Below, in pieces: positions 34,534 through 37,219 of a DNA stretch of 64,000 nt. Under the pieces are notes generated by a model. It was not told the origin of the DNA. It saw only the letters and a list, made by a program, of their open reading frames with translations, and did no database searches. Source of the stretch: Rhodoferax sp. GTDB lineage: Bacteria; Pseudomonadota; Gammaproteobacteria; Burkholderiales; Burkholderiaceae_C. The position numbers were made by a program, and so were the translations under genes. How positions within the stretch are numbered: the stretch's first letter is position 1; each line of letters starts with the position of its first letter. The stretch lies in the NCBI RefSeq assembly GCF_025354435.1, contig NZ_JANXMU010000077.1, positions 62,001 through 126,000 of the forward strand. Direction: 5' to 3'.

Positions 34534-35625
34534 GTGAACCATATTGCCAAAGCTGGATTGAAAGTTGGAGTGTTGGGGATGACATTGGCGCTGGGTGCCT
34601 GCTCGGTGCTGCAAAGCGAAAAGATCGACTACAAAAGCGCGGGCACGGTAGGCCCGGCGCTGGACGTGCCGCCCGACCTGTCGCAATTAAGCCGTGACTC
34701 CAAGTACGTGGTGCCTGGCGCTGCCGTCACCGCCAGCAACTACAAAGTCGGCCAGGTTGCCGCTGCCGCCCCCACCGCCGCCACCTCGCTGGGCGACATC
34801 CGTGTGGAGCGCGCGGGCACGCAGCGCTGGCTGGTGGTGAACCGCCCCGCCGACAAATTGTGGGTGCCGGTGCGCGACTTCTGGCAGCAAAACGGCTTTC
34901 TGCTGACCGAAGACAACCCCGGCCTGGGCATCATGGAAACCGATTGGGCCGAAAACCGCGCCAAGTTGCCGCAGGACATTATCCGCAGCACCTTGGGTAA
35001 AGTATTTGAGTCGCTCTACTCCACCGGCGAACGCGACAAATACCGCACCCGCCTGGAGCGTACGGCCACCGGCGGTACCGAAATCTACATCAGCCACCGC
35101 GGCATGGTCGAGGTGTACACCAGCCAGGCCAAAGACCAGACCATCTGGCAGCCCCGCCCCACCGATCCCGAGCTGGAAGTTGAATTCCTGCGCCGCCTGA
35201 TGCTGAAACTGGGTGCCAACGACGAGCAGGTCAAAACCGCGCTGGAGCCCGAAGCCGCCAAGGCCAATGCCCGTATCGCCACGGTCAACAACCAGCCGGT
35301 GGTGCAACTAGACGACGGTTTTGACCGTGCCTGGCGCCGCGTCGGTCTGACGCTGGACCGCACCGGCTTCACCGTCGAAGACCGCGACCGCAGCAAAGGC
35401 ACCTACTTTGTGCGCTACGTGGCCCCGAATGCCACCAAGACCCAGCCTGGCTTCTTCACCAAGTTGTTCAGCAAAGACAGCACCTCGCCACCGCTGCAGT
35501 ACCGCATTGCCGTGGTCACCGAAGGCACGACCACCACCGTCTCGGTGCTGAACGCAGCGGGCGTACCCGAAGTGTCCGACAACGCCAAGAAGATCGTCCA
35601 GATCATTGCGGACGACCTGAAATAA
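34534..35625 (+). CDS. bamC: Outer membrane assembly lipoprotein BamC
   Basis: Lipobox LALGACS; immediately downstream of dapA; KIDYKSA...LDVPPDLSQL. Confidence 0.9.
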   Translation: MNHIAKAGLKVGVLGMTLALGACSVLQSEKIDYKSAGTVGPALDVPPDLSQLSRDSKYVVPGAAVTASNYKVGQVAAAAPTAATSLGDIRVERAGTQRWLVVNRPADKLWVPVRDFWQQNGFLLTEDNPGLGIMETDWAENRAKLPQDIIRSTLGKVFESLYSTGERDKYRTRLERTATGGTEIYISHRGMVEVYTSQAKDQTIWQPRPTDPELEVEFLRRLMLKLGANDEQVKTALEPEAAKANARIATVNNQPVVQLDDGFDRAWRRVGLTLDRTGFTVEDRDRSKGTYFVRYVAPNATKTQPGFFTKLFSKDSTSPPLQYRIAVVTEGTTTTVSVLNAAGVPEVSDNAKKIVQIIADDLK

Positions 35626-36413
35626 GCACCTTACGCTTCAAAAGCCTGGGCAGCGGCAGCGCAGGCAACGGCACCATCGTCGAAGCCAGCCGCGGGGCCC
35701 ACACCACCCGCGTGCTGGTCGATTGCGGCTTTGGCCAAAAGCAGCTCGACCAGCGGCTGGCGCTCGCGGGCCTGCAGGCCGGGCAGATCGACGCGATCTT
35801 CATCACCCACGAGCACGGCGACCATGTGGGCTGCGCGCCGCAGTGGGCCGTGCGCCACCGCATCCCGGTGTGGATGAGCCACGGCACCCATGCCGCCATC
35901 GTCCACCCCGATCTGCCAGACCTGGACGGCCTGCTGCGTATCGCCCGCGACACCGAAACCATCGACCTGGGCAACTTGCAGCTCACGCCCTTTACCGTAC
36001 CGCACGATGCCCGTGAGCCCTTGCAACTGCGCTGCAGCCAGGGCGATGCACACCTGGGCATCCTGACCGATCTAGGCCATGCCACGCCGCACGTGCTGGA
36101 GCAGCTGATGGGCTGCCAGGCCCTGCTGCTGGAATGCAACCACGATCCCGATCTGCTGGCCGCGTCGCGCTACCCACCGTTTCTAAAGCAGCGCGTAGGC
36201 GGCATGTACGGCCACCTGGCCAATTACGCCGCCGCCGCGATTGCCCAGGCCCTGGCCGTGGGCGGTCTGCGCCGCATCATGGCCGCGCATTTAAGCGAAC
36301 AAAACAACCGACCCGAGCTGGCGTTGGCAGCCTTGGCCGGAGCCGAAGGTTGCGCCGATGTTACACTGGACGTCGCGCAGGCGACTTTTGGCTGCGATTG
36401 GGTCACCGTATAA
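35622..36413 (+). CDS. MBL-fold metallo-hydrolase (YycJ/WalJ-like); non-canonical start proposed
   Basis: HxHxDH motif (ITHEHGDHVGC); conserved N-terminus LRFKSLGSGSAGNGTIVEASRGAHTTRVLVDCG is in frame upstream of the first canonical start (GTG 35712). Confidence 0.8.
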   Translation: MSTLRFKSLGSGSAGNGTIVEASRGAHTTRVLVDCGFGQKQLDQRLALAGLQAGQIDAIFITHEHGDHVGCAPQWAVRHRIPVWMSHGTHAAIVHPDLPDLDGLLRIARDTETIDLGNLQLTPFTVPHDAREPLQLRCSQGDAHLGILTDLGHATPHVLEQLMGCQALLLECNHDPDLLAASRYPPFLKQRVGGMYGHLANYAAAAIAQALAVGGLRRIMAAHLSEQNNRPELALAALAGAEGCADVTLDVAQATFGCDWVTV

Positions 36414-36445
36414 GGAATTACCCTGGTGCGTCGGGTAAGATCGCA

Positions 36446-36585
36446 GGGTTCATTGGGGAGTAGCCGCCCACTCTTATGTGGGGCTTGCGTCAACATACTT
36501 AGCCGTTCGGCTATGGTGCAAGCGGTTGATGTCTAAACCAGTTTTAGGCAAATTCTTAGCAAGACCTTTGACCATGTCACCTCGG
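36446..36585 (+). ncRNA. yybP-ykoY-type manganese riboswitch (approximate bounds)
   Basis: 5' TTGGGGAGTAGCCGCC and 3' AGCAAGACCTTTGACCATG conserved aptamer segments, directly upstream of a UPF0016/GDT1 exporter. Confidence 0.85.
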
Positions 36586-36643: not shown

Positions 36644-37219
36644 ATGGAAGCATTTCTCATCTCCACAGGCATCGTCGCTCTCGCGGAAATCGGCGATAAA
36701 ACCCAACTCCTCGCCTTCATTCTGGCGGCCAAATTCAAAAAGCCCTGGCCCATCATTGCGGCCATCTTGGTATCCACCATTGCCAACCACGCCTTTGCGG
36801 GTGCGGTCGGCTCCTGGGTGACCTCCTTGGTCGGGCCCGAAACCCTGCGCTGGGTGCTGGGCATTTCTTTCATCGGTATGGCAGGCTGGACACTGGTGCC
36901 CGACAAGTTTGAAGAAGAAGATGCCAAGCTGGCCCGCTTTGGCGTGTTCGGCACCACCTTGATTGCCTTCTTCCTGGCCGAAATGGGCGACAAAACCCAG
37001 TTTGCCACCATCGCCCTGGCGGCCAAATACCACAACTTTGTAGCCGTGGTGTCGGGCACCACGCTGGGCATGATGCTGGCCAACGTGCCCGCCGTACTGC
37101 TGGGCAATAAGATTGCCGAACGCATGCCAACCAAGATCGTCCACCGCATTGCCGCCGCTATTTTTCTGGTCATGGGAATCTTGACCTTAATGGGCGTTGG
37201 CGCTGGTGTAGGTTTGTAG
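36644..37219 (+). CDS. UPF0016/GDT1-family manganese exporter (MneA-like)
   Basis: Two duplicated E-x-G-D-K-T motifs (LAEIGDKTQLLAF and LAEMGDKTQFATI). Confidence 0.9.
   Translation: MEAFLISTGIVALAEIGDKTQLLAFILAAKFKKPWPIIAAILVSTIANHAFAGAVGSWVTSLVGPETLRWVLGISFIGMAGWTLVPDKFEEEDAKLARFGVFGTTLIAFFLAEMGDKTQFATIALAAKYHNFVAVVSGTTLGMMLANVPAVLLGNKIAERMPTKIVHRIAAAIFLVMGILTLMGVGAGVGL

Follow-up and report, generated by a model that had tools for sequence, protein, structure and literature searches.

An ATA codon overlapping the bamC stop as the probable start of a metallo-beta-lactamase-fold gene in Rhodoferax

In this study, the start codon of a gene for a metallo-beta-lactamase (MBL)-fold hydrolase, lying directly behind bamC in Rhodoferax sp., was sought in the window, a 64,000-nucleotide stretch of contig NZ_JANXMU010000077.1. 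Mechanical ORF calling starts the gene at GTG 35712, as the original prediction stated. That prediction proposed instead an ATA codon overlapping the bamC stop, which raises the question of where the protein begins and how a ribosome could start there.

The bamC-MBL junction and the position of the start

The features of the locus are as follows.

34534-35625, + strand: bamC, outer-membrane assembly lipoprotein, with a GTG start and a TAA stop at 35623-35625 (Pfam Lipoprotein_18, 2.2e-49)
35584-35630, + strand: junction stretch (last 13 sense codons of bamC, TAA, and ATA AGC ACC), with zero changes across three species
35610-35612, + strand: weak Shine-Dalgarno (SD)-like GGA inside bamC, 9 nt 5' of ATA
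35622-35624, + strand: candidate ATA start codon; ATAA at 35622-35625 forms a 4-nt overlap with the bamC TAA
35622-36413, + strand: MBL-fold hydrolase gene, 263 codons from ATA plus a stop codon
35643-35669, + strand: SLGSGSAGN motif, end of beta1 and loop, enclosing CTG 35646
35712-35714, + strand: GTG taken by the ORF caller, codon of residue 31

The NCBIfam BamC model matched the upstream gene at 3.2e-9, under its cut-off. The terminal codons of bamC are GAC CTG AAA TAA. The MBL frame is -1 relative to bamC; from 35622 it opens with ATA AGC ACC, continues with TTA CGC TTC AAA, runs through AGC CTG GGC AGC GGC AGC GCA GGC AAC, and stops with TAA at 36411-36413. The MBL start begins one base 5' of the bamC stop, as in 4-nt overlaps, but TAA and ATA stand in place of the TGA stop and ATG or GTG start of coupled overlaps.

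The encoded protein has the MBL-type HxHxDH metal motif (THEHGDH), matches Pfam Lactamase_B_2 (2.4e-16) and Lactamase_B (1.8e-14), and gave an AlphaFold model with a mean pLDDT of 91. Foldseek matches of this model, namely RNase Z, YhfI, PhnP, and the B. anthracis ELAC homologue, agree with an MBL fold. Its resemblance to WalJ is presumed by us from the GSGSxGN motif. For the WalJ/YycJ subfamily, no NCBIfam model scored above its cut-off, and the only PDB sequence matches were TTHA0252 and Apyc1. A study of replication arrest (PMC9836290) lists WalJ of B. subtilis as a metallo-beta-lactamase/5'-3' exonuclease; by analogy, an exonuclease role for the window protein is offered as a suggestion. 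Directly 3' of the gene lies an ordinary Mn2+ riboswitch (yybP-ykoY, RF00080, 79.4 bits; 36443-36583, + strand), followed by a gene for a GDT1-type cation exporter (36644-37219, + strand).

Upstream of the motif, the frame is open for 106 codons in the window. The original prediction found no ATG, GTG, TTG, or CTG in this frame back to about 35529; this is correct and holds further upstream, where the sole CTG is at -104 (minus positions are numbered from the S of SLGSGS). Codons within one base of ATG are limited to ATA at -7, AGG at -40 and -82, and that CTG. As in natural AUA-start genes, no usable in-frame ATG, GTG, or TTG is present. In G005, one of the two further species with this junction, the frame is closed by a TGA at -22. 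Of the 21 open codons that remain ahead of the motif, ATA is the sole near-cognate one, and a far-upstream start at CTG -104 is ruled out.

Several observations show that the coding sequence extends 5' of the motif. Across codons 2-22, three base differences separate the window from either relative, and every one is synonymous (Leu TTA/CTC, Arg CGC/CGT, Ser, Ala), a pattern with P of about 0.013 per comparison under random change, the comparisons being not fully independent. LRFKSLGSGSxGN is kept in orthologs that start just ahead of the motif, with a canonical start at -5. In the AlphaFold model, strands beta1 to beta3 comprise residues 3-10, 17-24, and 27-33, and L9, S11, G12, S13, G15, and N16 are invariant in 24 orthologs. 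Because synonymous-only change, the conserved sequence, and these strands all fall here, translation of the MBL gene must begin no later than codon 4, and no near-cognate codon other than ATA is nearby.

Initiation at GTG 35712, the first canonical in-frame start, would give a 233-residue protein. As the original prediction anticipated for a canonical start, an essential part would be deleted: beta1, beta2, and most of beta3 are lost together with the invariant motif. Since 7 of the 9 changed codons 5' of this GTG are synonymous and the core strands are encoded upstream of it, the ORF caller's choice is almost certainly wrong, and we regard such a start as barely credible. CTG 35646 within the motif, from which fMet-GSGSAGN would be made, belongs to the start codons that do work, if weakly, and all three species have it; orthologs with an upstream start, though, have it simply as the codon of the motif's conserved Leu, and the preceding LRFK, which belongs to beta1, changes only synonymously (TTA/CTC, CGC/CGT). 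A start at this CTG is therefore very unlikely. ATA 35622, whose coordinates had been predicted exactly, is left as the only plausible start.

Conservation and origin of the ATA codon

The junction ATAAGCACC was identical in the window genome (G000) and in G003 and G005, two further species of the genus with MBL proteins 94% identical to that of the window; the longer junction GACGACCTGAAATAAGCACC was also identical between the window and both. The MBL genes of the three species were free of stops and frameshifts. Since their pairwise dS is 0.31-0.35 with dN/dS of about 0.1, the gene is working and under purifying selection, and the ATA is old, not a base-call error. A sequencing error at 35624 was ruled out by the same ATA in the two other species. 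The ATA is thus conserved between species, as natural AUA starts are, in three species forming one clade (100/100 support) and in none outside it; the three cases are hence one evolutionary event.

The terminal 14 codons of bamC (13 sense codons and TAA) were unchanged in the three species and form the longest invariant run in the gene. A terminal run of this length has a P of about 0.004 if changes are evenly spread. This is modest evidence, and chance could explain part of it.

The original prediction derived ATAA from an ancestral ATGA overlap by one transition, for which orthologous junctions should carry ATGA. The nearest relatives showed no ATGA where the ATA lies. The sister of the ATA clade is Rhodoferax sp. 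OV413 (L001; L084 is the same contig), which belongs to the genus group of the window genome and has GTG at -5; a species with TTG comes next. In both of these nearest outgroups (L001/L084 and L002/L085), bamC ends with TAA, followed by a spacer and by the GTG or TTG at -5, two codons 3' of the ATA position. For this reason, TAA is taken from the sequences to be the ancestral bamC stop, and a single ATGA-to-ATAA transition is disfavoured because a change from TAA to TGA and back would be required. A passage through ATGA on the stem is less likely, as it takes extra steps, and is not needed. Alignment of GAAGTAACCACCGCTTCCCAGGTGCTTCGC (OV413) with GAAATAAGCACCTTACGC (window) points to a loss of approximately 12 nt, start codon included. 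The canonical start was probably lost together with about 12 nt of spacer, which fits better than an ATGA origin. On the stem of the three-species clade, removal of this spacer with the old NTG start would have brought the bamC stop against the MBL frame.

In a wider survey, 161 of 166 distinct ortholog junctions had a canonical ATG, GTG, or TTG at most 8 codons from the motif, mostly at -5. The 5 without one were the three ATA species, G397, and G238. G397 (L101/L127) has no canonical start near the motif and carries ATC at -4 behind an in-frame TAA, and G238 (L108/L126) has ATT at -5, a position occupied by ATG in its close relative G028. These two, known from one assembly each, are possible independent candidates for non-canonical starts, so that non-NTG starts of the MBL gene, rare as they are, may have three separate origins. 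That ATH starts recur as a rule of this gene was rejected: when 401 family genomes were scanned by pattern for ATH at -5, only G238 matched. In SZAS isolates (L030 and L032), a true GTGA overlap of 4 nt joins the bamC stop to the MBL start, so that the coupling geometry has a separate origin there, with a canonical start.

Initiation at the AUA codon

The MBL protein is probably translated from ATA 35622 by weak reinitiation after translation of BamC. A ribosome ending bamC at UAA would not fully leave the mRNA and would slip one base back, placing AUA in the P site with fMet-tRNA. Inefficient reinitiation would follow; it would resemble that at the common AUGA overlaps of 4 nt, except that the stop is ochre and the start near-cognate. 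The MBL protein would then be made in small amounts, dependent on translation of bamC and with a probable sensitivity to IF3. The 4-nt overlap is the commonest geometry of coupling, which needs an overlap or a very short distance and drops sharply as distance grows (PMC10666635).

The SD-like GGA forms a 3-bp duplex with the anti-SD at -3.2 kcal/mol (ortholog median, -2.2). A strong or extended SD, which is a trait of the S. aureus AUA cases and not of all AUA starts, is not present. It is because of this weak pairing that we infer reinitiation to be the likeliest route. Several other bamC-MBL pairs with short spacers have few or no synonymous changes at the bamC end, whereas pairs with long spacers vary; this is in keeping with an initiation region lying within the end of bamC. 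Natural AUA starts of S. aureus reach about 10-30% of AUG (PMC13009471), and for E. coli an AUA efficiency of at most 1% of AUG has been reported (Hecht et al., cited in PMC12864459). The low efficiency in E. coli counts against the proposal, as do the strong SDs of the S. aureus sites, which the window site does not share. MBL expression is expected to be low. RNA structure at the junction showed nothing consistent among the three species. An altered IF3 in the ATA clade was rejected, as its IF3 is like that of the GTG-start sister except for the C-terminal tail.

Two other routes into the MBL frame were considered. A -1 frameshift by ribosomes finishing bamC, which would yield a BamC-MBL fusion, would agree with the MBL frame being exactly -1 of bamC and with the invariant junction DNA. 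However, CTGAAATAA is not an X XXY YYZ slippery site, and bamC also ends CTGAARTAA in relatives with an ordinary downstream start. BamC is moreover an exported lipoprotein, the fusion of which to a cytoplasmic-type hydrolase would make little sense, and we consider this route highly improbable. Ordinary de novo initiation at ATA on a bicistronic mRNA, uncoupled from bamC, could use the GGA 9 nt upstream, and the same genome does initiate infC at ATC behind an AAGGA SD. Set against this are an SD pairing of only 3 bp and the exact 4-nt overlap, the geometry used in coupling (PMC10666635); de novo initiation is therefore unlikely, though it deserves more weight than frameshifting.

AUAA may be a functional ochre version of the 4-nt overlap, in which termination at UAA passes the ribosome on to a near-cognate AUA. 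The weak start would be kept by selection that holds the MBL protein low, coupled to BamC, and sensitive to IF3, even though a single A-to-G transition would give AUGA; this idea is tentative, and we think it rather doubtful.

Relation to known systems and significance

AUA starts and 4-nt overlaps are each known already; what is new here is the combination of an ochre stop with AUA. A search of the accessible literature found no precedent for coupling at AUAA, an absence that is not proof. The AUA starts of S. aureus infC and ccpN (PMC13009471) are similar in being conserved, in having no canonical alternative, and in the limit on output that is expected. They differ in their extended strong SDs and in having been demonstrated by Ribo-Ret and reporters; the MBL gene of the window has a weak SD and an ATA over a stop, known from sequence. 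Termination-reinitiation overlaps of the ATGA/GTGA type (PMC10666635) share the geometry, their start codon beginning one base 5' of the stop that ends the preceding gene. In the known 4-nt overlaps that stop is TGA and the start ATG or GTG; with TAA, only an NTA start fits, of which ATA is the codon near-cognate to ATG.

The infC gene of the same genome (L115, G000:C65:8207-8713, minus strand) has an ATC start behind an AAGGA-like SD, as does infC of the congeners (L111-L118), which is the usual non-AUG arrangement of infC-type genes. infC is the classic case of autoregulation by IF3. It resembles the MBL gene in its ATH-type start in the same organism and congeners and differs in its AAGGA SD; the MBL gene does not encode a translation factor. 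In E. coli O104:H4, an ATG-to-ATA change in rpoS (PMC12864459) still allows the protein to be made, at a level up to 5-fold lower, but that variant is a recent laboratory mutation, and the ATA of the window is fixed across species.

Gene callers limited to ATG, GTG, and TTG cut 30 residues off the MBL protein, and overlap surveys limited to NTG starts are blind to ATAA junctions. As a conserved case with no strong SD, the junction makes it possible to test cleanly whether ribosomes that have just terminated become less strict about the start codon.
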